A stretch of 64,000 nucleotides of DNA. Source: Paralichthys olivaceus (taxonomy: Eukaryota > Chordata > Actinopteri > Pleuronectiformes > Paralichthyidae). The first letter of the stretch is position 1. Every line of letters starts with the position of its first letter. The notes beneath the pieces were generated by a model. That model was not told where the DNA came from, ran no database searches, and saw nothing but the letters and a program-made list of their open reading frames with translations. The translations under genes were made by a program, and so were the position numbers. This document shows, one piece after another, positions 1 through 58,026 of this stretch. Location: contig NC_091102.1 of the NCBI RefSeq assembly GCF_024713975.1, positions 18,635,001-18,699,000 on the forward strand, given 5' to 3'.

Positions 1-3000
1 TGCGAATGATTGTTTTCATTAAATCAGGATAATCTCCATTGAAGATGGGATGTGCAAACCAGCCAATGAAGAACTGCAGCATAAATCACATGGTCAATGA
101 TTATTACAAGTCAACAGGTTTTTTTCTGAGCTTTAATTTACCTGACACCTAATTAACCTTATTTTTTGTAAAGATGTAAAAATCATTAAAAAGTGGCAGA
201 AATATTTCCTATGTCTACTTGTCTACCTGCAAGTAGCGCTTGGTTGAGTCCACGTCCTCCTGTTTATATGGGTTCCGTGGCTCCACCCAATCAGAATTAA
301 TGGTAATGGAGATGACGCCTCCATGTGCTGCGCGGTACTTGTCATTGTAGAGGTGCCAAGCCTCAGCATGGGCCTTGATCAGGTTGTGAGCCGCAACATA
401 CTGCTTACCCACAATGCCTGAAACAGTTGAAGCATTATTAACTGTATACTTTTAAGAACATTCAACATCATACAGAGTAAAACTAAAACAGCTAGCTTCT
501 TATTTCAAGCTTATACACATTTCTGTAGGGAGAGTTTCTCACATTCACTTCACAAGTTTAAATTAAACTATGTTGTATCTGTCTAAAACTACTTTTGTGT
601 ATACATAAAACCTTACTTTTATTAAAGATGTTTCACCGGTTTTGTCACAGTCACTGCCCATGTATTTCAAAACAATGTTGTTTTATTACCTGGAGCAAAG
701 GTACCATATCCATAGCCAAGGTTTGCGACAATGTATGGTTCATTCAGAGTGATCCAGAACTTCACTCTGTTTCCAAGTCGTCTGAATAAAACATCAGCAT
801 AATCTCTAAATCTGTTTACAATTGTTGCATTCTGCCATCCCCCTACTTTCTGCAAAGCCAATGGAAGGTCCCAGTGGTATAGGGTCAACTGAAAAATAAA
901 AGAAAGAATATGATTACTGTATTACAGTGCACTTCTTACACAGGGGATTTTTTTCTCTTTGGCACAACATTTAATTTTTTTACAATTACTTCAAGCCAAT
1001 CAACGCCAGAAATGAGCAAGTCCTAAACATGGTAAATATCAGTGTTAAAGTCAGGGACCTAATTCAATAATATCAACTGCAACACTGCTTACCTGTGGCT
1101 GAATGTTAGCAGCTTCCAAGGCATCCAGTAATCTATGGTAGTAGTTCAGTCCAGCTTCATTGATGTAGTTGTTGGTTCCATCAGGAAGCACCCTGGGCCA
1201 GGATACGGAAAAGCGGTAGTGGGATACCTTTAACTTCTTCAGCACCGCCACATCCTCATTAATCTTATTATAACTATCACAAGCAATATCCCCATTGTCA
1301 CTATTGCTCACTCTCAAAGGAGTATGGGCAAACTTGTCCCAGATACTCAATCCCTTTCCATGTGCTCTCCAGCTCCCTTCAATCTGAAAGGCAAAAAAGT
1401 GTTATTGTAGCACTGCAAAATACCTCAAAGTTGCTTAATTAATATTAAGAACATATACATCAGTGTGAAGCAATCTTCAACAATGTACTGGCATTTCCTA
1501 CCTGGTAGGAAGCACTAGCAGTGCTCCAGTTAAAATGTGTGGGAAACGTTCCATATAGCATCTTTTCATCATCTGGTAATGGGAAACCATTGTCCCTCAT
1601 GACCTGGTAATAATAGTGAGCTGATCGTTTGGGTATCCTTGGACGGTTTTGATTGGTGAAGTCCACATAGTGCAGCCCGAATCCAACTTTGTATCCATTA
1701 AGCCACTCAAAAGAATCCATGAGAGATGTTGCTATATATCCATTCACCTTCACACCATCAAGATTATGGGCTGCAGACAGTACAAGTACAGGTAAAGACA
1801 ACATTATTAGCTATGAAAAAAAGTTGATGTTTGTGGAAGGGTGGCCTACATTTTGTACTATATGATTCCAAAGAATAAGGTGACTGCTGCACAGACCAAC
1901 CATATGGCATTCAGCATTTGTCATTTCATTCAGGAGGACAGAGACACAGATTATATCCTCAAAATGCTTGATTATCGGATTAACAAATTTAATTTTCTGA
2001 AAATCTAGAAACTGATGTGTGTACTTACCCTTCAAAGCCTCATCAATGTAAGTTTTGTGGAAAAATACCCTATCTATGTCATCAACTGTGATCGTATTGT
2101 CTGTGGCTGCTCCATTCTCAGTAATGTAAATCTCTGGATCTCCATACTCTTCTTTGATCCAGTTGAGGAGTCTTCTCAAACCCCAGGCAACAGCTCTCTG
2201 GTTACCGATGGCTGTAGTTGGTGAATCACTTTCCTCTGCTTCTGACAAATCTCTGTCATATTCATAAGAATGAGGTGTGAGCCTCAATGTAGCGTGGCTT
2301 GCAATCCTTGTGGTGTAGTGATTTATGCAGAACATGTCAGCAGTTCCCCTGATGAAGCTCTTTTCTTCTTCAGTAAAGGAAGGAAGTCTTGACTCTGAAA
2401 GACCTTGGAGTTCACTTTTGTTTCCAACTTGCCACTTCATTGCATCAGGATAGTCACCATTCTTGAAAATAGGGTGCGCAAACCAGCCCAGTTGGAACTG
2501 CAGAGCACGGTCAGCTGCCACCACTTCTCTGGGAACCGTAACATCTTGAGGCTCTATCCAATCAGCATTGAGGGCAATGGACACTAGACCACCTTGGGAT
2601 GTCCGATACTTATCATCATATGTGTGGTAGGCCTTGGCATGAGCTTTAATCAGGTTGTGTGCAACTCTGTATGGTGCAATTCCTGGATTTTTAACATTTG
2701 GCGGAATCTGTCCAAGTCCATATCCTGACCATGCAATTGTTTGAGGCTGGTTGAAGGTCATCCAAAACTTTACTCTGTCTCCAAACGTGTTAAAGCAGAA
2801 GTCACAAAAGTCATTAAATATATTAATCATGTTTACATTGTCCCATCCACCAATGTCCTGCAAAGCTTGAGGGAGGTCCCAGTGATAGAGTGTCACCATG
2901 GGGGTAATGTTATAGGCTAAGAGACCATCAATGAGTCTATTGTAGTAATCAACACCATTCTGGTTCAGGGAGGTACGCCGACCATCAGGAAAGATCCTGG

Positions 3001-6000
3001 ACCAGGACAGAGAGAATCTGTATGACTTCACCATCAGAGCTCGCAGCATGTAGAGGTCTTCATCAAGTCTGTGGTAACTGTCACAGGCCACATCTCCATT
3101 AGGATTACCAGGAATATTGCCAGGTTTGTGGGTGAATGTATCCCAGATGCTGGGCTTCTTTCCATCTGCATTCCAGCCACCTTCAATCTGATAAGCTGAT
3201 GATGACACTCCCCACCTGAAGCCTTGTGGGAAGACACCATAGTGGTAGAGTTTTCTCTGAAAATTGGTTTGATTAGAGAATTTCCTCCAGACACCCTTGG
3301 CTTGTGACGGGACTGTGGAAGGTGGCATTGAGGAAACTTTATTTGACTTCGTATTTGCATTATCTGGTGCATGAAAGAACGTTTTTTTGGAAGCAAAACC
3401 ATTTTTCTCGATAACTTCAGAGTAAAAGTAGGCGGACTGCTTTGGAGTCCTGGGTCTGTCGGGTAGATCAAAGTTGACATGGTGGAGTCCAAACCGTTCA
3501 CTGTAGCCTTGTGGACCCTCAAAACCATCCATGAGTGACTGGACAGTAAACCGCTGAACATTTACGCCATCCAGTTGTATAGCTGTTGAGAGAATAGAGA
3601 CACTGAGCCACAAAACCATTTAAAATGTTTTCTTCTTATCATTATTATTAATATTTACAGGGTACAAGACACAAACAATATTTTTATAATTTATCTATCA
3701 CTTAACCATTGATTTGTACAAAAGATGTATCTAAATCACTAACAACACAGGTGACAGTATCCACTACTACCAACAGCATACCTTTCAGGGCCTCATTGAT
3801 GTAACTCCTCATGTACTCTATCCTGCTGGTATCATTGAGAGTGTCCCCACTGTACTCGCTAGGCATCCCATTCCCAGTTATGTGGATAGGCACTTTAGTA
3901 ACATTCAAGTATTCTGTGGAAATGTAGTTTAGAAGCCTTCGAAGGCCCCATGGTGTTGAATATATCCAGTCAGAAGCTGTAGAGGACCATGATGGATCCA
4001 CATGAGCATGGAAATCACCAACTCCCTGAGGACCAGGGGTGCAGCCACCATCACTGTTGTTGACCAACCGGGAGGTATAATGGTTTAACCCTAAAAAGTC
4101 TGCTGTTCCATGGATCCTCTTTCTGTCTTGAAGAGTGAAAACTGGAAGCCTTGCAGGCTCAGAATTGGGACACACTTTTCTTTTCTCTTCAATTTGAGTC
4201 CTGAGTGTTGCAGGATAATCTCCATCTACAAATATGGGATGTGCAAACCAGCCCAGCATGAACTGCAGGTAGCGATCTGCAGCTGCTATGTCTTCAGGTC
4301 TGGAGGGGTCCATGGGCTCAGCCCAGTCAGAATTCAATGCAATGCCCACTTTCCCTCCTTGTTTCATTCGGTACTTGTCATTGTAGACATGCCAGGCCTC
4401 AGCATGAGACTTGAGTATATTGTGAGTGGCCTGCAGAGATGGAAACAACTGTCAGGTAAATGTCATGTGACATATATTTACATGTATTTATAGTATAGTA
4501 ATGACTGTACATTCACCTGATAGGAGGCAACCACATAATCCTTTACTCCAGGGGGGTGCTCACCAGTGCCATAGCCAGCATGGCTCACCACCCAGGGGCT
4601 ACTGAATGTGTTCCAAGTCTTGACCCTGTCTCCAAACCTGGAGAAGCAGAAGTCTGCATAGTCCTTGAAGGCTTCAACAATGGAAGTGTTGGTCCATCCA
4701 CCATGATCCTGGAGTGCTTGAGGCAGATCCCAGTGGTAGAGAGTGACAACAGGTTGTATGCCAGACTCATTGAGTGCATTGATCAGCTTGTCATAGTAGA
4801 GAGCCCCTTTCTCTGATTGGCTGCCTCTGTGGCCTGAGGGGAAAATACGGGCCCAGGAGATAGAGAACTGGTAGGTGTTGACATGGAGACCTCGCAGGAG
4901 GTAGACATCATAGTCCACCTTGTAGAAACTGTCACAGGCTAGATCAGCTGTCTGATTAGCAAAGGCCAGGCCTTCATGACCAAAGCGATCCCAAATGGTC
5001 TCCCCCTTCCCCCCTTCTGACCAGCCGCCTTCAACCTTGAAGGACTCACTGGAGGTGGCCCATTGGAAGTCTGCAGGGAAGGATTCGCTCAGGAAAGCAT
5101 CTCGCTGGGCTGAGTTCATTGTGGCAAAATTGCTCAGAGTTTTGGAGTAGGTTTTGAAACTTGATGAAGTTTGGAGATCATTTCTATTGTAGGTTTCCTC
5201 CCCTTGATGTTGTTTTCTTAATATTGAGAACATAAGACATTAAAAAAAAATTAGATGGAGAAATGTTGATGCACTTCCTATTTAACTTAAATTGTGAATT
5301 CTATACACTACGTTCCAAATATCTCAAAAAAATGAATTTGCTTTCATTTTGTATCTGAACATATTGTTTGGTGTTTTGTGCTTCACAAATCAAACAATGA
5401 CACATTTACTCACACATTTTCAATGTGGAATAAATACTTCACTGTCTAATTGAACTACATACCTGTTTGGGACAGAGTCAGCAGGACGTAACAGATCCAC
5501 CATGTCCAACCCAAGAACACTTTGTTCTGCATTTCTCAGCACTGTGAAAGTATAATGATAATATATTACACAGAATAAATCATATATCATATTCATGTGT
5601 CCTTCATTGCCATAAAAATAATGACAGAATCCTTGAACCATTTGCATTTTTCACAAGATGATAGAAATAATGTGCCATCAGTTTTATTTATGAATAAAAA
5701 AATGTCTAAACTATGACTGAGGCAAATAAAAGTGTTCATCTCTTATATAATTCTGTTTTCAACTTAGAGTTTGAAGGGAACTAAAGCAAACAATATAATT
5801 AACTTATCTCTGTTCAGGACTCTTCAAATGAAAGATTACCTTCTAATATTTTGGTATCAGACAGGAAGTGATAAGGAGAACAGCCATGGATGTTCAACTC
5901 GTAAATGAGAACCGGTTTCTTTCCACACTTTCCCTGAGAAAACAGACACATTCAGTTCAGGTGAATGCAGCACAGATACCAGATTAAAACTGTGAGGGCG

Positions 6001-7558
6001 GACGTACCATGACATTTTTCAGTTCTTCAGCCAGGTTGTGCTCAGCGGTGCAGTCATACTGAACTTTAACAGACAGGAAATCTAAGTATTTCTGAAAAAG
6101 ATGCATGTGTGAGTGTCGGGGTGCGGAACTCTTTTCTCACATATAAAGATTAACTTCACACATTTATCAAACACCTTTATCTATTAGGAGGCACCTTGAA
6201 ATATGCGTTATATTAGAATGATTGCTGTGTGTTTTATGTGACTGTGAGATCGTACCTGTTGTTGGGTTTCACAGATGATTGGGATTTTACTGCCCTTTAC
6301 CCCAACTGATACTTTTCCTTCTGCAACAAATTACAAATTAATTCTGTTGTCAGTTTACTGCGTCCAAATCACATTCTCCTTCCCATTGCATTAGCACTCT
6401 CCTTATCATGACCTTAGGCACATACGGATAACAGATATGAAGGGGCAGTATCTCAATAAACATTGCCATAATCATTGTGCATATAATAAAACTGGACAAC
6501 TGCAGCACAGCAGAATATCAACGCTCTCGCAATATGATTAAATATCAAAGGAATAGTGCTTTGTCACTGATACAGTCATGGGGATTGATAAACACTGTAT
6601 TAAAGAATGAAAATACAGATTAACTGGACTTGAACTAAACTTAATTGGTGTTTAGGTGTCAAATAACCAGTAAAACTACCTAAATAATTCTCTATGCAAA
6701 GATAAAGAATCTCAGTTTCTCCAGCCACATGTGGTTTCTTGGCTTTGTATGTTTGGAACAGGCACAAGAGTGGAGGGAAACAATAAAGGCACATAAATAT
6801 TTTTATCAATTGCAAGCCCTCTTTTTTGAACAATGACTGACCAAATATTTCCCCTTTTCAATATTTTTCCTCCTTCTATACAAACTACAAGTTTTACACA
6901 AGAACTCAGAACATTAATGCTCTCAACTAAACACTGATCTCTTACCTCTCCCGGGAAACATCAGGTGGTAACGGCGATAGATTCTGCTGTGTACATCAAG
7001 AGCGTTTTGCAGCTCAGCACCTGTTAGTTCATCCAAGCTGCTTAGTGTCACCCATGAGTCTACCAGCTCTCCAAACTCCCCAAACACAAACTCTGCGTAC
7101 TGCTGAAACATGTCCACCAGCTCCTGGCTCTCCCAGCCTCCATACCCTGACCTCAGAGCCTCTGGCACAGTGGAGCCATGAAGAACAACCAGAGGCTGAA
7201 GGCCTGACTCCAGCAGCTGGCTCAGCAGGGTCTGGTAACAGGTCACCACAGCCTGGTGGGGCTGGCTGGGGAGGCCTGTAGGAAGAAGCTGAGCCCATGA
7301 CAGTGGCATCTTGAAGTGGGTCACCCCTCTGCTCTGGAGGTACTCAAAGTACTGTCTAGAACCAGGAGGTATGGGCTGACCGCAGTCAAAAGTGTCTAGC
7401 AATTGTCCTTCAAATACTTCTTCATTCAGTCCTTTCACCTGTTCACTAGTCATGGGACCTGCAAGGAACATGGCCTGCTGTTGATCGTCATGTCTCTGAC
7501 ACATGCACCCATACAGAGCTATCAAACACAGAAAGAGCAGTCTCCCCGGTGATGACAT
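1..7558 (-). CDS. lct: Lactase-phlorizin hydrolase paralogue, copy A (exons 1-13, 3' end beyond window)
   Basis: Multidomain brush-border glycoside hydrolase family 1 (GH1) protein. Exons by GT/AG sites and phase (minus strand): 6946-7558, 6256-6320, 6008-6091, 5840-5933, 5463-5541, 4517-5216, 3782-4430, 2029-3582, 1502-1770, 1093-1383, 690-888, 227-417, and 1-73 (cut). All phases join without a stop, giving about 1,620 codons. Start chosen at 7558 ([20 protein letters not shown], a signal peptide) because a TATAAA lies 47-52 bp upstream; an in-frame ATG at 7576 is less likely. Order: signal peptide, truncated GH1 domain I (exons 1-5), domain II (exons 6-8), domain III (exon 8), domain IV (exons 9-13, incomplete). 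Domain II has FSSP and ITGNG where GH1 enzymes have NEP and ITENG; domain III has TFNQP plus intact ITENG; domain IV has intact TLNEP. Exon count and the 1,554-bp exon 8 match the vertebrate LCT layout. The domain IV nucleophile and membrane anchor lie outside the window, so an intact 3' end cannot be shown. Confidence 0.93.
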
Positions 7559-7604
7559 ATTGTCGATGGGAGGCAAAGTGTTTGAGCCCTTGGCTAGCTT
7601 ACAA

Positions 7605-7610
7605 TTTATA
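7605..7610 (-). promoter_or_regulatory. TATA box of lct copy A
   Basis: TATAAA on the minus strand, 47-52 bp upstream of the ATG at 7558. It places transcription start near 7575-7580, which favours the ATG at 7558 over the in-frame ATG at 7576. A TGTTTAC forkhead-like motif lies just upstream (about 7617-7623). Position and sequence are seen directly; function is inferred. Confidence 0.5.
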
Positions 7611-7623
7611 GTTGTGCTGTTTA

Positions 7624-9135
7624 CAAGCTTGAACTTTCAGTCAAGCCAGAGTTTCATAACGTTCACTAGTGTAAGCTGCTGTTGGTATATGAGTGGTCGC
7701 AGCCTTGACTGCTCCTGATAAAATGCAAAGGGTCAAACAGGGAGAAGAGATTTATGAGGGAAGGGAACAAATATCTGTGCAGAGGTCAAAGAGAAAAATC
7801 TGGATACAAATATTATGAGAAAATGCGGATCTTATAAAGCATTCTTGGAGGCAGGGATTGTGTTTGGGGAGTCCCTGCAGGTAAACACTATATAATCATC
7901 ATATTATTAAGAGTAATCACTGTTGTTGGTTTGGATTTGAATTGTTCGGACATTGTGGCCTCTTTATAGGACTCATCTGTCAACAGCCTCATCTGCAGTG
8001 ACACCTTGTATATCTCTGTATTATTTTTTAAAGAAACAGCAGCACAAGTGATAAAACAAGTAATCGCACCTGTGAATTCAACAGCTTGATAGGAGTTTTG
8101 TATTTTGTATTGTTACATTTATTAGAGATAGACTATATTATATGTAGAAAAAATGTTTTGAAAATTGTAGAGATTGTTATTGTCAACCAAGGTGAGCCCC
8201 ATGGTTGTGAATTTAAGAGGACATAATAATCCTAGGACAAAGGTTTCAGGATCAGGTAAATCTGACAGTGACAGATGTTGGGTGTACTTTACTGACTGAT
8301 TGTATTTTAATTTGACAGGAGAGAATGTTATAATGTACACAAATCGGAATTTAAAATGTTTTTTTTTAAATATTTACATCTGTGCATGACACAGCATGGA
8401 TTAGAGAGATATTGATAACCATCTATCATTTTTTTATCATTGTAATTTGAATGGAGGCTGAGTTTATTATTTCCAAGGAGGGGGTTAATTTGAGTCTGTT
8501 GTTGTTGAGGCAAAAGCTGCTTCATCATTTTGGAAAATACATACTCAAAAGACCTGTTGAAAAATCTATAAGAAATTTTCACAACTGCTGATTTAATTTG
8601 GAAAGATCTTCATTAATTACACATGCAAATCAAATCACAAAGAATGTAAACATTTGTGTAGGATGAATAGGTGTTCCTCTCTCAGCCAGCTTTGTGTGCA
8701 TGCAAATATATTAGATTACAATTTATATACAAATAAAAATATATATTTTCAAATTAGCGATTTTACTTTACTGTACTTGAGTTTGTCTGAAACAAAGAGA
8801 AATACAAAACAGCTAGGGAGACAAATGCAGGCTCCACTTGAATGAAATTGTCACTAAACTTAACTTTTAAATTGTCTCTCACCCTTTAAATTTAAACTAC
8901 TAAAACCGTCTAAAACATTTGTACAAATTGCAACAGCATATTTCATGGTCTTCAGACGCGAGTACATGTGAGTCCAGAGTCTTTCTGACTATCACAAAGC
9001 TGCAATAAAATTAGTTGCACCACGTGGATGTGATATCGATCTTGATTGTCTAACGTTGCGATAAGGAGAAAACATTATTGCTTTAAAGATCTTGGCTATC
9101 AGTGGATAATATCAGTCCATCCTTTTCCAGCCACA
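7624..9135. other. Intergenic spacer between the divergent lct copies
   Basis: About 1.5 kb, AT-rich, with no convincing coding exon. It must contain the promoters of both lct copies, since their start codons face away from each other. Short reading frames here show no recognisable domain. No inverted-repeat similarity between its two halves is evident by eye, so the two promoters appear to have diverged even though parts of the coding regions are nearly identical. Confidence 0.7.
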
Positions 9136-12100
9136 ATGGAGAACCTGTTGTGGCTTCTGTGTCTGTTTGTCGTGTGTGTGTGCGAGTGTTGGAGCAGTGG
9201 GGTGAATGGACAGGAGGACTTCATGCTCCTTGCTGGCCCCCTGAACAAACAGCTGGCGAAGAACGCGGACAGTGAGGTGAATGATGCTTTTGACTGCAGT
9301 CAGCCCATACCTCCTGGTTCTAGACAGTACTTTGAGTACCTCCAGAGCAGAGGGGTGACCCACTTCAAGATGCCACTGTCATGGGCTCAGCTTCTTCCTA
9401 CAGGCCTCCCCAGCCAGCCCCACCAGGCTGTGGTGACCTGTTACCAGACCCTGCTGAGACAGCTGCTGGAGTCAGGCCTTCAGCCTCTGGTTGTTCTTCA
9501 TGGCTCCACTGTGCCAGAGGCTCTGAGGTTACGGTATGGAGGCTGGGAGAGCCAGGAGCTGGTGGACATGTTTCAGCAGTACGCAGAGTTTGTGTTTGGG
9601 GAGTTTGGAATGCTGGCACACTCATGGGTGACACTGAGTGACTTAGGTGACGCTCGGCGTGATTGGGAGCCTGTGGCTGATCCCCGGCCTCTGCAAAATA
9701 TCCTGCAGCTCCACAGGAACATTTACAAGATCTACCATCAACATTTTGGTGCAGAAGGTAAGAAGATATGATTTACTGACATAGTTTGTATATATTTTTT
9801 CGATGCTTGAATTTATATTTGAATTTATTTACAGGAAAGCCCCTTGAGGTATTGCATCTCAAATAAACTAGCAAAGAAAAACAGCATAGCAGAAAAAATA
9901 GACATTACACATTACAAATCAGTTACAGTATTGAAGCACTTTTCAAAGCATTAACAGGTTGTTAATATTAAGCCATACTAAATAAGCTATGTGATTCATT
10001 TCATTTTAAATGTGTCTTGAAAATCCTCTAAATTAAAATAATTGTTTTTTGGCCAACTGATACTCATACCATTCACCTCATTACATTGCTGTGTGCTCAG
10101 ATTCCATGTGTAGACTATCACGCCCGTGTCAGTAATCAGTTGAGCTCAATAAAAGAAAAAGGACTATTTATGCAACGCTGAAAAGAGATTGAAGTCTACC
10201 ACGTGACTCAGCAGGTGCAAATCCAATATGTGTCTGCATAAATTATACTGATGTTAACATAAGGCTCATATGTTCACAGGGGGACGTCTGTCAATTGGTT
10301 TGAGAGCTAGTGATGTGGAAATGATTCCTCAGATTAAAGATTCAACGATAGTAAGCTGCACCTTTTATCTTCCAGCACATACTGTATTACCTGACCATTA
10401 CCTTTTATATTTCCATCTTCTTAAGGTGCTGTTCTATTGTATTTTGACAGTTTTGAATCAAAATAAGATACATGTTTTCAATACATGTACAAAAACATGT
10501 AACTAAGAGAAATATCACTATATTTTTAATGGATATTATGTCAATCCTGAATTTTACCCGCATTAATGGGAGAAAAATAATTGATAATAAAATATATTGT
10601 TGCTTAAGAATAAACTTCTGTATTGGAAGAAGATAGATACTTCATTGCAATTTATATTTATAAAAGATTTCAGGTCAAGACAGCTTAACTGCACGGAGAC
10701 TCCCAAGGGAACTTCATCCTATCCACATGTAGTCAGAGTCATGTCAGAGTCCTTATTTCAAGATAACACTTTTAAAAAGAAACAGTGGTTAATGTATTAT
10801 AGTTTTTTTTTCTCATTCCTTTTCACATAACTTTACTGCTACTACTCATGTAAAGCTTCCATCACCACATACCTTCCCACTAACCAGTATCAGTATTGTA
10901 CTTGGTAGGTCTGACAGTGTATCTGTAACAGTGTTTAGAGTAAGTCACTAATGTGTTACCTGTACAAGCAGTTTTTCATTAAGGGACAAGAGTGTAATAA
11001 CATACTGTTGTGTGTCTCAGATGGATTTCTTGTCAGTCCACACTGAATATAACTGTGCCTCAACATCCAATTTTGCAGATGAGATGAGGAGTTTACAGGT
11101 ACAGTGATCAACACAAGCTGTTTCTCTTCAGTTTGCATTTCACATTACTCTACAACCACATGCATGTTACGTTATGTTGTAGATGTCCAGTGGGAACTTG
11201 CCTGTACTGATATACAAGATGACAGCTCATGATTGTTCTTACAGTCAGTTCCAGCTCCTTGGCAATTTCCTGCAAGGTAATGCCATTACAGCTCAACTAA
11301 TAGGCCTATTACTTTGTTATTTAATTTTCCACTTGTGCTTATCTTTAGAAACAGAAACCAAGAACATGTAGAGGAGAATATGCCTTCATATGGGTATAAG
11401 TAAAATTACTATGGCTTACTCTTATCTCCCTTATTCGATTAGTATAAATATATAAATAAATCCTGACTAATACTCGCTTTTTACTACCTTTTTCTCTATT
11501 CTGCCCCTCCAACAGGATCATATTAGGTCAAATCAGACAAAGTCTGTGACAATTTTTTTGTTTTTTTGAATTTATATCTGTAACTGCAGTTCTAATACCA
11601 CTGTGGGCAGCTGCATACATGCATACATGTTATCAAAACAATAAAGCTCCAGTAAAAACATTCTGCTTCAGGTTGAAATCAGTTTAAACTTTAAACATAG
11701 TCATAACACAATTTGCATTAAAAGATTATAAGTAACAATCAAAACTAGTGTCAAAACTATTTTCATCAAGGCATTTTCAATAAGCAAATAAGATAAACAG
11801 GGCAACTAGATGAGGCTGTACTGTTGTAAACTGTAACATTGTAAACCTTTATTGTACAATAATCATAAAAGTTTACTTTCTTGGGCTCTAACAGAGTGTT
11901 ATCATATGACAGTGATTTGTGTAAATTGTTCATGCTATAGACCAGTAAAAGATTTACAAGGAAAATCATGACCAGCCTTTGGACTTTCTATTTATTAGTT
12001 CATTCATTAAGCTACACACAAACAGCTAGAGTACACAATCTGTCTGACAGTCATTGTTTAATTTAAAAATTGTCATTACAACTGAACTGTGGTTAGATGA

Positions 12101-15100
12101 AGTATTAGGCATTATGTGTTTGTTGTAGATTTTTCTTTTGGCAAAAAAATTAATATTTGAGCAACTTTATCAATTTAAATGTCAATGCCTTAAAAAAATT
12201 GTAGATACAATAGTTTCATATTTTATTCATTAATGTCTGTTGTGAACGCCTCACAGTCCTGAACAACAATGACCTGAACATTGTGGGATGTGACATGATG
12301 GACATTCTGGGTAAGCTGGGCATGCAGGAGGATCAATTCAGGTAAGAGTTTGTCTCTAGAAATTTAATTATGCTTATCTACTGACAAAGTTTCTTTGTTG
12401 GTATTTAAGTTGTTCTATCTTGATCTCTTTTCCAAAAATGACAGCGTTGCCGAATACACAGAGATGATAGAGTCCAGAAACAGTTATCAGAATGTGTGGC
12501 ACAAGTTTGAGGCCCAGACTACATTGGAGCGTGACCTTTTCCTCAAAGACTCTTTCCCTACAAACTTCCAATGGGCCACCTCCAGTGAGTCCTTCAAGGT
12601 TGAAGGAGGCTGGTCAGAAGGGGGGAAGGGGGAGACCATTTGGGATCGCTTTGGTCATGAAGGCCTGGCCTTTGCTAATCAGACAGCTGATCTAGCCTGT
12701 GACAGTTTCTACAAGGTGGACTATGATGTCTACCTCCTGCGAGGTCTCCATGTCAACACCTACCAGTTCTCCATCTCCTGGGCCCGTATTTTCCCCTCAG
12801 GCCACAGAGGCAGCCAATCAGAGAAAGGGGCTCTCTACTATGACAAGCTGATCAATGCACTCATTGAGTCTGGCATACAACCTGTTGTCACTCTCTACCA
12901 CTGGGATCTGCCTCAAGCACTCCAGGATCATGGTGGATGGACCAACACTTCCATTGTTGAAGCCTTCAAGGACTATGCAGACTTCTGCTTCTCCAGGTTT
13001 GGAGACAGGGTCAAGACTTGGAACACATTCAGTAGCCCCTGGGTGGTGAGCCATGCTGGCTATGGCACTGGTGAGCACCCCCCTGGAGTAAAGGATTATG
13101 TGGTTGCCTCCTATCAGGTGAATGTACAGTCATTACTATACTATAAATACATGTAAATATATGTCATATGACATTTACCTGACAGTTGTTTCCATCTCTG
13201 CAGGCCACTCACAATATACTCAAGTCTCATGCTGAGGCCTGGCATGTCTACAATGACAAGTACCGAATGAAACAAGGAGGGAAAGTGGGCATTGCATTGA
13301 ATTCTGACTGGGCTGAGCCCATGGACCCCTCCAGACCTGAAGACATAGCGGCTGCAGATCGCTACCTGCAGTTCATGCTGGGCTGGTTTGCACATCCCAT
13401 ATTTGTAGATGGAGATTATCCTGCAACACTCAGGACTCAAATTGAAGAGAAAAGAAGAGTGTGTCCCAATTCTGAGCCTGCAAGGCTTCCAGTTTTCACT
13501 CCTCAAGACAGAAAGAGGATCCATGGAACAGCAGACTTTTTAGGGTTAAACCATTATACCTCCCGGTTGGTCAACAACAGTGGTGGTGGCTGCACCCCTG
13601 GTCCTCAGGGAGTTGGTGATTTCCAGGCTCATGTGGATCCATCATGGTCCTCTACAGCTTCTGACTGGATATATTCAACACCATGGGGCCTTCGAAGGCT
13701 TCTAAACTACATTTCCACAGAATACTTGAATGTTACTAAAGTGCCTATCCACATAACTGGGAATGGGATGCCTAGCGAGTACAGTGGGGACACTCTCAAT
13801 GATACCAGCAGGATAGAGTACATGAGGAGTTACATCAATGAGGCCCTGAAAGGTATGCTGTTGGTAGTAGTGGATACTGTCACCTGTGTTGTTAGTGATT
13901 TAGATACATCTTTTGTACAAATCAATGGTTAAGTGATAGATAAATTATAAAAATATTGTTTGTGTCTTGTACCCTGTAAATATTAATAATAATGATAAGA
14001 AGAAAACATTTTAAATGGGTTTTGTGGCTCAGTGTCTCTATTCTCTCAACAGCTATACAACTGGATGGCGTAAATGTTCAGCGGTTTACTGTCCAGTCAC
14101 TCATGGATGGTTTTGAGGGTCCACAAGGCTACAGTGAACGGTTTGGACTCCACCATGTCAACTTTGATCTACCCGACAGACCCAGGACTCCAAAGCAGTC
14201 CGCCTACTTTTACTCTGAAGTTATCGAGAAAAATGGTTTTGCTTCCAAAAAATCGTTCTTTCATGCACCAGATAATGCAAATACGAAGTCAAATAAAGTT
14301 TCCTCAATGCCACCTTCCACAGTCCCTTCACAAGCCAAGGGTGTCTGGAGGAAATTCTCTAAACAAACCAATTTTCAGAGAAAACTCTACCACTATGGTG
14401 TCTTCCCACAAGGCTTCAGGTGGGGAGTGTCATCATCAGCTTATCAGATTGAAGGTGGCTGGAATGCAGATGGAAAGAAGCCCAGCATCTGGGATACATT
14501 CACCCACAAACCTGGCAATATTCCTGATAATTCTAATGGAGATGTGGCCTGTGACAGTTACCACAGACTTGATGAAGACCTCTACATGCTGCGAGCTCTG
14601 ATGGTGAAGTCATACAGATTCTCTCTGTCCTGGTCCAGGATATTTCCTGATGGTCGGCGTACCTCCCTGAACCAGAATGGTGTTGATTACTACAATAGAC
14701 TCATTGATGGTCTCTTAGCCTATAACATTACCCCCATGGTGACACTCTATCACTGGGACCTCCCTCAAGCTTTGCAGGACATTGGTGGATGGGACAATGT
14801 AAACATGATTGATATATTTAATGACTTTTGTGACTTCTGCTTTAACAAGTTTGGAGACAGAGTAAAGTTTTGGATGACCTTCAACCAGCCTCAAACAATT
14901 GCATGGTCAGGATATGGACTTGGACAGATTCCGCCAAATGTTAAAAATCCAGGAATTGCACCATACAGAGTTGCACACAACCTGATTAAAGCTCATGCCA
15001 AGGCCTACCACACATATGATGATAAGTATCGGACATCCCAAGGTGGTCTAGTGTCCATTGCCCTCAATGCTGATTGGATAGAACCTCAAGATGTTACGGT

Positions 15101-18100
15101 TCCCAGAGAAGTGGTGGCTGCTGACCGTGCTCTGCAGTTCCAACTGGGCTGGTTTGCGCACCCTATTTTCAAGAATGGTGACTATCCTGATGCAATGAAG
15201 TGGCAAGTTGGAAACAAAAGTGAACTCCAAGGTCTTTCAGAGTCAAGACTTCCTTCCTTCACTGAAGAAGAAAAGAGCTTCATCAGGGGAACTGCTGACA
15301 TGTTCTGCGTAAATCACTACACCACAAGGATTGCAAGCCACGCTACATTGAGGCTCACACCTCATTCTTATGAATATGACAGAGATTTGTCAGAAGCAGA
15401 GGAAAGTGATTCACCAACTACAGCCATCGGTAACCAGAGAGCTGTTGCCTGGGGTTTGAGAAGACTCCTCAACTGGATCAAAGAAGAGTATGGAGATCCA
15501 GAGATTTACATTACTGAGAATGGAGCAGCTACGGGATCAACGACAACTTGGGATGACTCTGCTAGAGTATTTTATTTCAAGACCTATATTGACGAGGCTC
15601 TTAAAGGTGCACGGACATTAACAAAGTTCTTAAGATTAATATTAATGATTGTCATGACTGTTAAGGTTTTTTGCTAATTTGTTGTGCTTGTGTATATTTT
15701 GACAATAGCCCATGACCTAGATGGTGTGAAGGTGAAAGGATATGTAGCAACATCTCTCATGGATTCTTTTGAGTGGCTTTATGGGTACAGAATTGGATTT
15801 GGGTTACACCATGTGGACTTCACCAACCCAAACCGGCCAAGGACACCCAAGTACTCAGCTCATTTCTACTACCAAGTCATTAAGGACAATGGTTTTCCTA
15901 CGCCAGATGATGATAAGATGATTTATGGACATTTCCGCAAGGATTTCATTTGGAGTACTGCAACAGCATCGTACCAGGTAACTTTTAAGCTGAATCCCCC
16001 TCATTAATGCTTCATCAAGGAGGTGCATACACATCCCTTATTCAGCTTTTGTCTACTTAAATTTCTGTTTAACATCTACCCTTTCCAGATTGAAGGGGGG
16101 TGGAGAGCACATGGAAAAGGCCTCAGCATTTGGGACAAGTTTGCTCACACTCCTCTCCGAGTGTTTAATGATGACAATGGGGACATAGCATGCAACAGTT
16201 ACAATAAAGTTGAAGAGGATGTTGCTATATTGAGGGAACTTAAAGTGACTCATTATCGGTTCTCCATATCATGGTCAAGGGTGCTTCCTGATGGCACCAC
16301 CAAGCACATCAATGAGGCTGGACTCAACTACTACCATAGACTGGTGGATGCACTGCTTGCTGCAAACATCCAACCTCATGTATGTGTTATTATAACCAAT
16401 ATCTCAAGAATGTTTTCAATACAAAATAGTAAAAAATAAATATTTTCTGTTGTCAGATCACTCTCTTCCACTGGGACCTTCCACAAGCACTGCAGGATAT
16501 TGGGGGCTGGGAGAACGAAACTATTATTGTCAAATTCAGAGACTATGCAGACCTCATCTTCAGTCGTCTTGGTCACAAAGTAAAATTTTGGATCACTATA
16601 AATGAGCCATACAATGTCGCCAATGTAGGCCATGGCTATGGAGCAGCTGCCCCAGGTATGTCTTAATGTAATGCTCTCCATCTTACATACAACCTCGCAC
16701 CAATATTTGTATTTTTATTTGGTGAGGAAAAGTTCTTTAAATCAGGGAATTTTATCAAAATAGTATGGCACACTTGCATTTAACTTAACAAACTTGTATT
16801 ACTCTGTGTCCAGGGATCAGTTTCCGACCAGGTACTTTGCCCTATATTGTGGGTCACAACCTGCTTAAAGCTCATGCTGAAGCCTGGCACCTCTACAATG
16901 ACAAGTACCGAGCCAAACAGAAAGGAATTATCTCTATCACTATAAACTCTGACTGGTCAGAACCCAGAAATCCCTACAAGCAGGAGGATATTGATGCTGC
17001 AAGACGCGTGGTGCAGGTACAATTATTTCAAAATGTTATACATTTCAACATGTGTAAAGTCTCTAATAGCTCTGTCTCTCTTTGCAGTTTTACATTGGCT
17101 GGTTTGCCCATCCTGTATTTAATGGAGACTACAGCAATATGATGAAGACAATCATTCGAGAGCGAAGCTTAGCAGCTGGTCTGCCAAAATCACGGTATTA
17201 TAAACACTAATGTAAATTCTGAAGAGAAATAACGTAAAATTATAATCTGTAGCAAAATTAGATAAAATAGGAAATTAGGGGGGACCTAAAATTAGCCACG
17301 GTCATTCTTTATTGTGGTGGTTACCATTTTTCAGTCATCAAGTAAATTCTACTATTTCACTTAATTTTCTCTAGGCTACCTGAGTTCTCTCCTGAGGAGA
17401 TTAAGAGAATTAAGGGTACCTATGATTATTTTGGGTTAAACCATTACACCACTGTGCTGGCGTTCCCTGTGGATTATGGAAACCTTCAGCACTATGATGC
17501 TGATAGGTAAGCAGTACCCACAGTTGCACTGCACTCTCACTCTGCCACATAAGTAATATTCACAAGATGGTTCAATGAAAATGATTCATCATCTTATTGT
17601 GTGCTATATTCAATGTTCACTGCATAAATAAAAGAAAAATAATGGTTGATCTTCACAGGGGTGCAGGGACAATCGCTGATCGCACCTGGCTGGATTCAGG
17701 TTCATCTTGGCTGAAGGTGTCACCATTTGGATTTAGGAGGATTTTAAACTTTATTAAGGAGGAGTATGGGAATCCACCTATTATCATTACTGAGAATGGC
17801 ATTTCAGAGCGAGGGCCTATTGACCTGAATGATATTCACAGGAGCTACTACTATGAAAAATACATCAATCAGGTGCTGAAAGGTATAAAACTACGACTTT
17901 AATGAAATACATTTAGGATGAAGTGAAACAGAGGGAAACAGTTACCAATGATTTACCAATAAGGTTGTTTGTATTTTTTTAAATACGTGTCTAATTTGAC
18001 CCTCTTTAAGCCAACTTGCTGGATGGTGTGGATATCCGGGGTTACACAGCTTGGTCGCTGATGGACAACCTAGAATGGGCAACTGGCTTTTCAGAGAGAT

Positions 18101-19392
18101 TTGGCCTTTTCTATGTCAATCAGTCAGACCCTGAGCTTTCTCGTGTGGCCAAGTCCTCTGTTGCCGTCTATTCCACTATCATCAACTGCAACGGATTCCC
18201 TGACCCAACCTCAGGGCCCCATGAGTGTTTGAACCCTGTGCCTGAAGGTAAACTGATGCACAATTGCTCAGATACCAGTTGTGATTGATTACTTCTACAT
18301 ACATTGCACCTTTTATTCATCCTGAGATATTTGTATTCTTTTTTTTCTAGTTTTGTGTCTGTGTGTTACTGTCAATGTGCCCACTCACTCCCAACATAAT
18401 CTTTCTGTATTCTCTCATGGGCTCACTCAGACATTCTTCGTAGTTTTTATCAGGGGACGGGCAGGAAAAAGTCCAGAGAATGTCCAGAGCCTGTGACTCA
18501 GTGATTTGCATTCTCACATACAGCCTCTCCAGATAATTTTAGGAGATTATCTGAAGTACAGTGATTATATTAATGGAGCTAAACTGAAACATACTGCAGG
18601 AGCTGTATGTATATTGTCAATCTTAAATTAATTGACAATACACAGTATCTACTTTGTATTGTATTGTTGTAAAATAGTGTGACATTGAGTTTTCAGAATT
18701 TAAAATCAATATAATTAATCTATAAGTATCAAGCTGGATCTATTGGACTGATAGCTTAGCATAGTAGGCACAAATGCAATTCCTGTCCCTGTCCACAGGT
18801 AAAAAATAAAAACACGAGTTATGCTGCTTAAAAGCTTCTGTACAAAAACAAGTTACCGTTTTATAGACGAATGTGATGTTCCTAGACAAGAGCACTGACC
18901 TGAAATCTTGTCTTGAGTTAGTTTCTTACCTTTAGACAAAGCCAGCGGAGCTGCTTCCTCATGCTTTCAGACTATATCCTAAGCTAAAGCTAAGTGTCTG
19001 CTGGCTGTATAGTTTCATATTTAACTGAGCAAGTGAGTGAGCAGTACTGGTCTGCTCCTCTAACTCTTAGTGAGACAACAGAAAGGTGGTTTTCTTTGAC
19101 GGAACATAACATGAAGTGATAGTACAGCCTTAGATTTTTCTTTATGTAGACCAAATATAGAATCACACTTACTGTCCAGCAATATATTCAAAATGACCAT
19201 AATAACCTTGGTGTCTTTTCTGCAGGGACGAGTGCTCCGATCACTGATGACACGGTGAAATTCCTGGGTATGAATCTTTCTACCAGTGACGCTGAGACGG
19301 GACTCAATGTCACATTTGCTCTCCTGGTTGTTGCAGTTTTTGGAGCTATGTGTTCATCTTTTTGCTTCTTTAGGGCAAAAAAAACAATCTAA
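9136..19392 (+). CDS. lct: Lactase-phlorizin hydrolase paralogue, copy B (complete, 17 exons)
   Basis: Exons: 9136-9757, 10280-10350, 11021-11098, 11183-11276, 12257-12341, 12445-13117, 13204-13852, 14053-15606, 15709-15977, 16089-16379, 16457-16655, 16814-17016, 17088-17194, 17375-17506, 17659-17882, 18011-18247, 19226-19392. Total 5,655 nt, 1,884 aa (human LPH is about 1,927), with all phases consistent. Signal peptide [21 protein letters not shown]1 domain I truncated (about 50-316); II about 354-825; III about 871-1338; IV about 1348-1812; transmembrane anchor about 1858-1877 (ending [16 protein letters not shown]-type) and a short basic tail, as expected for an apical intestinal membrane enzyme that hydrolyses lactose and beta-glucosides. 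Active sites: domain II S514 and G727 replace both catalytic Glu; domain III has Q1036 for the acid/base and keeps nucleophile E1246; domain IV keeps E1512 and E1721. Seventeen exons equals the mammalian LCT count. Substrate in fish is inference. Confidence 0.95.
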
Positions 19393-22513: not shown

Positions 22514-23798
22514 CTATGCACGGAGACCTGTGAACATAGTGATGGTGTCAGTTTAAGTAAAGCATTTAGTTTGAGGGTTTAACACAATCAAGATACAAGC
22601 TTACTGCTGATTGGACCGATAGAAAAAAGAATGAAAAGGTAGAAACCATACCTTTCTCACATGTGCTGCTCTGCTTCTCCTGGGCAAAGTTTAATCTGTT
22701 CTGCTCGACTGCAGTGCCATTGGACTCCGGGCTGCTGCTGCGTGACGGGCTGTTCTCCTCGTTCTGGTAAGCCATATCCAGATGTTGCTGGGCAAGTTTT
22801 AGGTGTCTGCGCAGCCTCTCCAGCTCCCGTGACGAAGCCTCGTCCCCAAACGACTCACGGCCCGAGTCCCCCAAGTTGTCCCTAAAGCCTATTTTTCCTG
22901 TTGGGTCCTTCTTCAGAGCTGTGTGGTAGCCTGGAGGCGCAGAGGGCTGGCGGCAGATGGAGGACCTCTGGCTAGCTAAAGCTGGGTGACGGGGTGTGGG
23001 AGGCCGAGACCTTGGTGCACAAAAGCAGTCGCGAATACCACTGATGCCAAGGTGGAGGATTTCTAACATGGTGAAGAGCAGACACAAAGCACTGACTGCA
23101 TACATGATGAGCAGGAAGATCGTTTTTTCTGTTGGACGTGAGACAAAGCAATCAACTGTGTGCGGGCAAGGAGAGCGTGTGCATACATAGGACGGCACCA
23201 CTTCTATCCCATACAGGATGTACTGTCCAAACAGGAAAGAGACCTCAAAGATGGCACGTGATAGCAGCTGAAACACGTAGACCTTCATCAGGCCATCTCT
23301 CTTGATGCGGCGGCGTCCATCGTGCTTTTTGCTGGGCTTCTCAACAACTTCCTTTTCCTTTTCAGGCTCAATCTCCTCCAGGATCATGGGGTCCTCTTCC
23401 CCGTTATCCTCTGCTTCTTCGTAGTCCCGATTTGCACCGCGGCTAACAATAGGCATCCTCTTCCTGCTCCTGGGCCGGTAGTCATCGTCCTCCATGCGGG
23501 CGATCTTATGCATAGCAAAGCCAAGGTACATGATGGTGGGGGTGGTGATCATAATCACCTGAAAGACCCAAAAGCGAATATGTGACAGTGGTGCAAATGC
23601 GTCATAGCACACATTCTCACAACCGGGTTGCTGTGTGTTGCACACGAATTTACTCTGTTCATCATAGTAGATTGACTCTCCCCCGACTGCCGTCAGCACA
23701 ATGCGAAAGACGATGAGGAGGGTGAGCCAGATTTTTCCCACGAAGGTGGAATGATTGGAAATTTCATCCAGCAGACGTGTGAGGAAGCTCCAGCTCAT
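22514..23798 (-). CDS. cx43.4: Gamma-type connexin (Cx43.4/Cx45-like gap junction protein)
   Basis: Gap-junction channel subunit. Starts [20 protein letters not shown], the GJC1 (Cx45)-clade N-terminus. Four membrane segments; extracellular loop 1 has the C-x6-C-x3-C pattern ([12 protein letters not shown]) and loop 2 the C-x4-C-x5-C pattern ([12 protein letters not shown]). A long acidic cytoplasmic loop ([19 protein letters not shown]) precedes TM3. The C-tail carries Ser/Pro-rich stretches. The exon 22652-23798 runs open to 22566, but a good donor (GAGAAAG|GTATGG at 22651) and an acceptor at 22528-22530 predict a spliced end ...CEKGLRA, with a last coding exon of only 14 nt including the stop (22514-22527), giving 386 aa. 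Read-through would instead add a hydrophobic 28-residue tail unlike connexins. An acceptor at 23832-23834 ends a 5' UTR intron, so the 5' exon lies further right. Assignment to the fish cx43.4 branch rather than gjc1 itself rests on remembered similarity. Confidence 0.9.
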
Positions 23799-23831
23799 TT
23801 TGTCTCTGGAACAGGAGGGAAACTCTCAAAC
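23799..23831 (-). other. 5' UTR part of connexin coding exon
   Basis: Thirty-three bases between a minus-strand acceptor (CCGCACAG, plus 23832-23839) and the ATG. The acceptor implies one or more upstream non-coding exons, as is usual for connexin genes. Confidence 0.55.
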
Positions 23832-49900: not shown

Positions 49901-50235
49901 GTGTGTTGCAACTGTTTCTCAGAGATGTGGTTTTCTGTGTGGGAAGCTCCAGCATCTGGATATGTTCATCTTGTGATGTGGCTTGCAGACAGGTGAGGAC
50001 ATTACTTTGAGACTAACCCTCAGGAGAAATGTGTCTTGTAGAAATGGTGGTGGACAGCAGCACATCAGTTACATCCCACTGAAGGTCTTGACAGAACTAT
50101 ACATCCCTTATTGTATTTTATACTCATCTAGTGTTTTTTTATTGTTGGTCCCTTGGTATATTTGCACAGAGAGAGAGGCCCCTTGTGCATTTGACAAATA
50201 ATGTGAATCATCAATGTAATGTGTGGTCAGTTTGC
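47000..50235. other. Non-coding region
   Basis: About 3.2 kb without a supported exon. Many short frames, none with recognisable domains or plausible flanking splice sites. Confidence 0.6.
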
Positions 50236-50246
50236 ACTCAGCTGAA

Positions 50247-50391
<145 letters not shown>

Positions 50392-51194
50392 AGCTCTCTC
50401 TCTCTCTCTCTATATAAATATATATGTAACTGTCACTAGAATTGCCAGGAAACATGCACTGAGTGTTTGATTGAATAAAGAGAGGCCTTGTAGTCTACTC
50501 TTCTTATCCAAGTCCTGTGCAACAACATGCTTCCACAGAGAGGAACACAAATCACCCTCGGACCCTGGAGTTTATTACTATTTTCAGTGTTTCCCAAGTT
50601 TAACCACCAATGACGTACTTTGCTTTCCTCCAGATACAACCAAGGTTGGCTAGTTTGCCTGTGTGGCTGTGCTATTCAAATATTTTATTGTGTTGGTTAA
50701 TTGGAGCACATGGAATGGCTGAGGGACAAGGAATGTCCGAGTGCTGATTAGATCCGTCTGTGGTGGGACAGATGGGGAAAGACAACAGTCTTTAAATGGA
50801 CGTGGCTGAGTTATATTGGGAAAAGTTTCCTTTTAGATGGGTGCTGAGAGCAGGTAGAAGGGTGGTGTGGGATCAGCAGGATTCACTAGAGAGGGAGCCT
50901 TTGTGGTGTGATGTCAGCTGAGCAGTTTAACGTCTGTGGTGGGAGGTGCTGACATTCCTGCTCCCTTGTTTGTGTCAATCCTACACACTCTGTCTATGAA
51001 GACACAAATCCATAATCAATAATCACAAACTGGGAAAAAATTAATCTGAAAAACACAAATACAAGTTCCAGTCAGACTCCATTCTTTGCTATTAGTATTA
51101 ATCTCTGTTTTTTATTATTCATTTCAGGAGAGAAAATATTCCAAGTAGTAGGATTTCTTTTTACTTTTGGAAGTGCAACACTGGAATATAAATC

Positions 51195-54930: not shown

Positions 54931-55515
54931 TACATAGCATGTTGCACGACGGGTGTAGCAATGCTCCCGTTCTTTTCAAAATAAAATGTCTGTTCTGTTG
55001 CTCAAGTGCAATTAGGCCTACGTCTTGAAACAGTGTTGGAACCATAGACTGTATATAAGGTTGGAACGTGATACTACTTGTAAGATTATACGTACAAGTA
55101 TTTTGTCTGTCACGAAAACCTCATTGTTTCTGTAAGGTGTTAATTTACACTGTTGAACATTTGTGACATTCATTTGTGATTTGCTAAAATAAACTATTTT
55201 TCAGTAACGCTTGATTGTTGATGTTGTTCAAGCGCGCCCAGCTTTTACTTTGAAAGTGAATCCCTGACACCAGAAGTTGTAACGTAAGAAACAGCGCCAC
55301 CTTACTGACTTGTTGTCTTTAGCCACGTTTCTTCCACCAGTGAAGTAAATGTGGATGTTTTAACATTGCCCGGTGCTGTGACCGTTGTCCTGCAGCAGCG
55401 TGTACCCGTGGACACTCATTGTTTAGTCGCTCTTCTCTGTGATGATGAGCCAGGGCTTCATGAGCCTGATCGTTCACTGGTGCGGTTCGTGTCCCAGCAG
55501 TCTTATGAGGTCAGG

Positions 55516-58026
55516 ATGTCCAGTGATCTCGCTGGTGTGTGGGAGGTGGCGCTGAGCGACGGAGTCCACAGGATAGAGTTCGAACACGGCACGACCACCG
55601 GGAAGAGGGTCATCTACGTTGATGGACAGGTATGCACCGTGATCTTAAAGTGAGACCAGACCAGGAGGACCTGACCTCCTCCATCATTCACAGTGTCCCT
55701 CCACAAAATCTGTTGATAATCAAATGTTAAAAACGCCAGAAAACATTGCAGCATACTATACAGACCATTTGCATAGTAGAGGATGACTCTCCATTAACAT
55801 CAAATGAGATAAATTAAAATAAAGCTGGGGACACTTTGGTGTATTGGGATTAATTAACGTAGACTTTACACATTTTATTATAGTATCAGCTTGACATGAA
55901 TCTACAAGTGTTTCCATGTCTCGATTACATTTCTCCCATATATCACGAAATCTGCCTTGTTTATGAATTGCTGATTCTTATATTGTGCCTCATGCGCAGG
56001 AGATCCTGAGACGGGACTGGATGTTCAAGCTGGTGGGCAAGGAGACATTCAGTGTGGGTAAATCGGACACCAAAGCCACCATCAACATCGATGCGGTCAG
56101 CGGGTTCGCCTACGAGTACACGCTGGAGATCAACGGCAAGAGCTTGAAGAAGTACATGGAGAACAGGTCAAAGGTCACCAGCACCTGGGTGCTCAACCTG
56201 GATGGCACTGACTGCAGGGTGGTCCTGGGTGAGTGTTAACACCTGCTTTTCTCATCACCGTATTAATATGATGTGTGTCTGTTGTTTTCATAAAGGCAAG
56301 ACACATTTTCTAAAATACAAAGTGCTGCACAACAAGCAAACAATTGATTTAAATATATAAGTACATTAATAATAATTGTAGAAATAATAATAGAGATTAA
56401 AGTCAAAAATAGCCTGGCACCCAAAGTAAATTCAGGAATATACCTTCTGAACAAGTATAATTTTAGCCGAGATTTAGAAGAATACACCGTCACAGTCTGT
56501 ATTTCCTCATGCAATTCAGTCCATAGTCGTGGGGCCCTGACGGCAAAAGCTCTGTCCAATAGTTTTCAGCCTAGATTCAGGAAGTGACAGCAGATATAAA
56601 CAGTGATTTAAAAGATCACAGATATTGCCTTAATCCAGGCCATGAAGAGCCTTATAAGTAATCCATACATTTAAAAACTTAATTAGAAAGTAAAAAGGAG
56701 GCCAATGTAAAACTGATAAAACAGGTGTGATGTGATCATATCTCTTTAGTTGTAGTTAAAAAGCAGAGATCTGAGCTTTGTAGAGACTGCAATCGTTCCA
56801 TGGTTCTCTGATCAAGACCATTGCAAAAAGCCATGTGGTGTGATAGTCAACCCATTTGAAAATGTCATGAATCTCTTGGTTTATTCATGTAATCAATCAG
56901 AATAGACATTGGATTCTAATTTAGCATTGTTTGATCTCTGCCCCCTCATGACTTCCTACTAATATTATGACAGAGCCGAGGCTAAGCTCTTTAACCGCTT
57001 TAAGCCCCACGCCATCTTCAGCCACCTCTGTCGTCTGGGCAGGTTAATCCCTCTTCTAATTATAGTGCTTACTGTTTTACAGGAGGCAAACCAACCTGCA
57101 CAACACAACAGGGTGCAGTCAGTAAGGATTTCTAAATCTGAGCAGTAAAACGATCTTGATAATTCACCAAGCTGGCTGAAAATATGAAGGTGTGGTCAGC
57201 AGTTGCTGGCTCACACATGAAGTCTGAGGGCAGTTAGTCGTGGTCACGTGGAGTACAGTTGTTCATAGTTACACTATGTCCCCAAGAGGTAAATTGTAAC
57301 ATGTCAAAATAGAGCCTACAATATTCAAATTAACATTTCAGCGCTATCCACGTCATATATGACTTTCACAAGCTGAAGAAAATGCATCTTAATTGTCTAA
57401 CCTAACAACGACATCTGGCAGCGCACACACACACACACACACACAAATATAACTCATTAAACAAGGTGCAGTCACATCATATACTTTTGTTGTCCAACAG
57501 TTGGATGTTCCATTGATTCAGTGCGTTTCCTTTCCTTTAGAGAAAGACACTATGGACGTTTGGTGCAATGGACAAAATATTGAAACTGCAGTAAGTATAA
57601 CACCAGTTAGAACGTTTTGAAAAGGGACATACAACCTCATTTAAGAAGTCATCAGATAAATCAAAAGTCCTCATCTGTAAATTCCTGTCTCCATATGATG
57701 GTTGGCCCATAACTCCTGATGTAATCCATACTCCTTGTAACTGATGTAACTGTACATCCTTTATGGGAAGAAACTGTCTGTGCCTCTGCAGTTATCTGTT
57801 TCTAAAGCAGCTCAGGAGCCGATGACATTAAACTGACCTGCTTGTCTTTGTCCCCGTGTGTGACTGCTGCCTGCAGGGCGAGTTTGTGGACGATGGCACA
57901 GAGACGCATTTCACACTCGGGGACCATAACTGCTGTGTGAAGGCCGTGAGCAGCGGCAAGAGAAGAGACGGGATCATTCACACGCTGCTTGTGGACGGCA
58001 CAGAGATAGCGGAGTGCACGGAGTGA
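55516..58026 (+). CDS. faim: Fas apoptotic inhibitory molecule 1 (FAIM)
   Basis: Small cytosolic all-beta protein that protects cells from Fas- and stress-induced death and limits protein aggregation. Exons: 55516-55629, 56000-56228, 57541-57590, 57877-58026; phases join exactly, 543 nt, 180 aa (human FAIM-S is 179). The start MSSDLAGVWEVALSDGVHRI aligns with the FAIM-S start. Hallmark motifs include IEFEHGTTTGKRVIYVDG, DWMFKLVGKETFSVG, TKATINIDAVSGFAYEYTLE, MDVWCNGQNIETAGEFVDDG and VSSGKRRDGIIHTLLVD. The same frame stays open 55 codons upstream to an ATG at 55351, which is not conserved-looking, so the internal ATG is preferred. Intron 2 carries a minus-strand LINE relic. It is convergent with the parp9-like gene. 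The X-box promoter is unusual for an apoptosis gene (see findings). Confidence 0.95.
56263..56930 (-). mobile_element. L2-like LINE relic in faim intron 2
   Basis: Minus-strand translation gives DRAFAVRAPRLWTELHEEIQ and then SSKSRLKLYLFRRYI, the conserved tail of fish L2-type ORF2 proteins; upstream the degenerate KALHGL region (AAGGCTCTTCATGGCCTGG) is visible. The 3' side ends in GCAGCACTTTGTATTTTAGA. Inserted antisense to faim; frames are broken. Confidence 0.7.
57422..57446. repeat. (CA)n microsatellite
   Basis: About 12 CA units in faim intron 2. Confidence 0.9.

Follow-up and report, generated by a model that had tools for sequence, protein, structure and literature searches.

Two neighbouring genes of Paralichthys olivaceus, inverted relative to each other, are nearly identical in their middles, introns included, and strongly diverged over most of their remaining length. 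How did this mosaic arise? We examined a stretch of 64,000 nucleotides (the window, to which all coordinates refer) from a genome of 588 Mb in 25 contigs, and modelled genes in the window together with the 20 kb to its left. This yielded two genes of the lactase-phlorizin hydrolase type (LPH, GH1), each with 17 exons in the predicted model. Copy A is encoded on the minus strand, starting at 7558 and ending at coordinate -1812, 1.8 kb beyond the left edge of the window; window positions 1-7558 hold its exons 1-12 and a portion of exon 13, and everything downstream, to exon 17, lies to the left of the window. Copy B, with exons 1-17, occupies 9136-19392 on the plus strand. The start codons are separated by 1577 bp, placing the genes head to head. 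Splice sites were picked by visual inspection, guided by the other copy, and the models, of 1915 amino acids for A and 1884 for B, are predictions from sequence. Both are open, with no internal stop, with GT-AG boundaries at internal introns and with identical phases. Elsewhere in the window we noted a 419-codon open frame (22566-23825, minus strand) that we take to resemble a connexin, an open frame at 55309-55653 (plus strand) that presumably resembles part of a Fas apoptotic inhibitory molecule (FAIM) gene, and another at 50092-50439 (plus strand) containing a long simple repeat in which SIYL is reiterated.

The identity of the genes was examined through their GH1 repeats, using PMC7658089 as a source for LPH domains. 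All four scanned pieces of copy B matched Pfam PF00232: exon 1, which covers profile positions 67-165 and was assigned to a partial repeat I, exons 6 and 7 (repeat II) and exon 8 (repeat III). The repeat-IV exons of both copies gave further PF00232 matches among the 50 best candidates of a genome search, and each protein carries several GH1 repeats, as expected of lactase-phlorizin hydrolase (LCT). No chain named lactase was present among the 60 of 193 PDB sequences listed, and the name LCT, as against LCTL or klotho, is thus putative for both genes; it is based on the number of repeats, a hydrophobic C-terminal exon and the 17 exons, which we take to equal the exon count of human LCT. The 50 best candidates of the genome search included no third lct locus; on the contig of the window, C10, PF00232 was matched at this locus only, and the other matches fell on C1, C7, C9, C15 and C22. 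These are presumably LCTL-like, klotho-like and cytosolic-type genes, and they proved too distant to serve as an outgroup for the direction of transfer. A scan of one collection of viral contigs likewise yielded no orthologue.

Two motifs, one of the NEP and one of the TENG type, are found in active GH1 enzymes. In repeat IV these are TLNEP and VTENG in copy A and TINEP and ITENG in copy B, and repeat II reads TFSSP and ITGNG in both models. In repeat III, both models have TFNQP and ITENG, with Q at the position where the acid/base glutamate is expected. This site lies inside the main tract described below (2747-2749 on the minus strand in A, 14886-14888 on the plus strand in B), and the nucleophile motif ITENG is retained. 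The residues aligned to the Q in 8in1_A are E (second repeat) and D (first repeat); in beta-klotho they are N in one repeat and E in the other.

Over most of their length the two genes have diverged almost as far as silent sites can record. Across the 860 codons outside both young tracts, pS is 0.675 and dS 1.73 (NG86), which is near saturation. Exon identity outside the tracts ranges from 46% (exon 2) to 80.3% (exon 9), with exons 2-5 at 46-56%; the exons that mix tract and non-tract sequence stand at 77.4% (exon 1), 90.6% (exon 6) and 97.4% (exon 8). The 14 introns outside the main tract are 43-53% identical, compared with means of 44-49% after shuffling (8 shuffles each), and two of them (introns 8 and 12) beat all 8 of their own shuffles, by 0.9 and 3.7 points. 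These introns look unrelated between the copies, or nearly so. A first-pass annotation of this DNA had described the genes as clearly diverged beyond the tract, with exon 9 about 77% identical by eye, and our figures agree. The profile across exons also excludes a smooth course of identity, which that annotation had named as evidence against exchange.

The middles of the genes are different in kind. Using blastn, window positions 2027-5096 (minus strand) matched 12538-15608 at 98.1% over 3071 columns. A two-state HMM with hand-set parameters (match 0.992 inside; 0.60, 0.70 or 0.78 outside) delimited a core at 5070-2106 in A (minus strand) and 12564-15529 in B (plus strand), and these limits were unchanged across the three background-identity settings. 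Set against the exon models, this main young tract begins in exon 6, crosses introns 6 and 7 with the exon between them and ends in exon 8; it takes in GH1 repeat II and the greater part of repeat III. When a 601-bp piece of it (window 3000-3600) was used as a probe, the genome gave two matches, both at this locus. The core contains 22 differences in 2966 columns, namely 21 substitutions (12 transitions) and 1 indel. Of its 892 codons, 20 differ, 8 silently and 12 with a change of amino acid, and the remaining two differences fall one in each intron. Intron 6 has 1 difference in 86 sites (98.8% identical), exactly the density that had been estimated in the first reading; in intron 7 all 199 aligned sites are identical (100%), and a single 1-base indel is the one difference. 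Silent divergence is correspondingly small, with a pS of 0.016 across 12563-15531 (895 codons, NG86). The near-identical tract had thus been correctly recognized, introns 6 and 7 included, to within 7 bases of the HMM limits at each end. Among the 12 replacement differences, two affect N-glycosylation sequons found in A but lacking in B: NES versus IES (A 4771, B 12863) and NQT versus KQT (A 3274, B 14361).

Strong selection on the proteins could in principle keep the middles of the genes alike with no exchange at all, and the tract is indeed mainly coding, with both predicted models open. The introns, however, match as well as the exons, while the other 14 introns do not, and silent sites have barely diverged. 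Moreover, more than half of the changed core codons alter the amino acid, which is the opposite of what extreme constraint would produce. Identity is also unusually continuous: the longest identical run among 5616 aligned coding columns measures 426, whereas no run exceeded 76 in 1000 shuffles of the columns, and the longest run of same-amino-acid codons free of silent change is 253, compared with at most 66 in 1000 shuffles. Such shuffles of columns or codons ignore local variation in constraint, and the intron comparison is independent of them. We concur with the first-pass annotation that protein selection alone is insufficient, and consider the chance that it accounts for the pattern to be negligible.

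The limits of the main tract are as informative as its content. At each edge, 35 of the 60 columns outside are identical, and the 60 contain no gap, whereas inside the figures are 59 of 60 and 60 of 60. The left edge falls in exon 6 (FPADFQW versus FPTNFQW) and the right edge directly past ITENG in exon 8, both as previously annotated. An abrupt change of identity at gap-free, homologous positions indicates an exchange in exact register, as expected when repair uses a homologous template. A recent inverted duplication of exons 6-8, joined non-homologously into the other gene in place of its own, would likewise be predicted to give sharp edges and identical introns. Both edges, however, lie at homologous positions with no gap within 60 columns on either side, and end-joining would arrive at such edges only by luck; we therefore regard a misplaced duplication as highly improbable. 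Within the core, the differences are evenly scattered (largest gap 391, P 0.75), fitting a single event or a single age, a pattern that several events of the same age would equally produce. Sub-structure within the tract was rejected on the same grounds.

A second young tract, absent from the first-pass annotation, lies in exon 1, within the partial GH1 repeat I. The HMM placed it at 7070-7392 (minus strand) in A and 9287-9609 (plus strand) in B, where exon 1 matches PF00232. It shows 4 differences in 323 columns, or 3 in 311 when the strictest of the three settings is applied, and the second inverted blastn match spans 352 columns at 97.4%. Its flanks within the same exon are strongly diverged, with a dS of about 1.8 before the tract and saturated silent sites after it. 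The tract is entirely coding, making the main tract the only one of the two with non-coding sites, and gaps occur in both of its flanks, in 15 and 3 of the columns counted. Its divergence does not differ from that of the main tract (4/323 versus 22/2966, Fisher p 0.32). The diverged exons 2-5 separate the two tracts, and one continuous event therefore cannot explain both. GC3 in the exon-1 tract reaches 0.64-0.65, higher than in all tabulated segments except the 5' end of exon 1 in copy B (0.71), but is 0.47 in the main tract, inside the range of its neighbours (0.39-0.56), and we make no claim of GC-biased conversion. Long open frames also occur in other frames of the exon-1 tract, on both strands (7029-7343 minus, 6931-7281 plus, 9336-9641 plus and 9398-9772 minus); these are perhaps a by-product of composition.

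The second tract also bears on the quality of the assembly. Long, near-identical inverted arms are difficult for assemblers, our judgement is drawn from assembled sequence, and reads of one copy could have been used to build the middle of both. Neither the window nor the 20 kb to its left contains an N, however, and the 22 differences scattered along the arms would not be expected of a collapsed copy. The edges lie within exons, with both frames open, and the same pattern recurs at another place, in exon 1. An assembly artefact, another contrary outcome that had been named at the outset, is thus very unlikely.

Exon 9 (1502-1770, minus strand, in A; 15709-15977, plus strand, in B) shows a milder excess of silent identity, again beyond what had been annotated. 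Of the 4-fold sites, 23 of 30 are identical in exon 9; the corresponding count for exons 10-17 is 68 of 156 (Fisher p 0.0012, post hoc and uncorrected), and the best 30-site block there retains 15. The flanking introns 8 and 9 are not alike (52.9% and 47.7%). Exon 9 may possibly be an older, eroded conversion patch, and the silent sites hint at this without proving it.

Taken together, the copies show low silent and intronic divergence within sharp, gap-free, homologous limits and old divergence beyond them, and we conclude, with the first-pass annotation, that recent interlocus gene conversion between old inverted lct paralogues very probably explains the mosaic. From this pattern we infer the mechanism of repair, the number of events and their age. 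An old inverted duplication would have given rise to two LPH genes, whose silent sites then diverged until they were close to saturated. Long afterwards, one gene may have suffered a break that was repaired from the other, in inverted orientation, with the template on the same chromosome, the sister or the homologue. Inverted neighbours 7.5 kb apart may pair within or between chromatids, with a non-crossover outcome giving conversion and a crossover giving inversion of the spacer. Repair would have copied about 3 kb, from exon 6 to exon 8 with introns 6 and 7, either without crossover or with a crossover that left the present arrangement. Some 0.3 kb of exon 1 would have been copied as well, at a time indistinguishable from that of the main tract, and exon 9 perhaps much earlier. 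Silent and intronic divergence in the main tract is about 1% (8 silent changes in approximately 620 silent sites and 1 in 285 intron sites). The mutation rate of fish is about 3e-9 per site and generation, which would roughly place the last exchange one to two million generations ago.

As a consequence, the two predicted proteins are almost identical in the core of repeat I, throughout repeat II and in most of repeat III, but still differ in the signal region, in exons 2-5 and in repeat IV, the catalytic one. Patchwork concerted evolution would be seen here in a clean case, between two old duplicates: a gene tree of exons 6-8 is predicted to make the duplication look recent, and a tree of exons 10-17 to make it look ancient. 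The geometry of the alignment raises a further prospect. The 7.5-kb spacer between the inverted arms (5071-12563) contains the 5' ends of both genes, and any arm-to-arm crossover would invert it. The homogenized arms might then act as a recurrent inversion hinge at which crossovers flip the spacer and swap promoters and exons 1-5 between the genes, an idea that we consider improbable. If it were true, natural haplotypes with exchanged 5' ends should exist, with the proteins still in frame; that is, an inversion polymorphism would swap the 5' ends of two genes for digestive-type enzymes.

Our search of titles and the beginnings of abstracts, among open-licence papers and thus no proof that none has been published, found no report of conversion between fish lct genes; the term gene conversion is applied to AMY1 in PMC4607523. 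Conversion between inverted paralogues has precedents. In Caenorhabditis, according to PMC1803023, divergent or convergent paralogous gene pairs likewise share long, near-identical inverted segments, and gene conversion is one mechanism that could maintain them. Those repeats take in the complete intergenic sequence, with a spacer of 126 bp at F44E5.4, and a case for selection on structure is made as well, whereas the lct pair has gene-internal patches, a 7.5-kb spacer and a remainder near saturation. The arms of the human Y palindrome P6 are also inverted and exchange tracts of kilobase size: PMC3723533 gives a mean of 2068 bp and a maximum of over 9 kb, which makes 3 kb an ordinary tract size, and reports inversions as detected but rare. 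P6, however, is a sex-chromosome palindrome, and such arms are >99.9% similar, whereas the lct copies are old and alike in patches only. A parallel in fish is conversion between lws opsin duplicates of anabantoid fishes (PMC11291592), in which Ks likewise approaches zero across portions of the coding sequence; the lct pair, by contrast, encodes a large multi-domain enzyme, and it lies in inverted orientation with introns included in the tract. Against these systems, the lct pair is a well-delimited new case of a known process.
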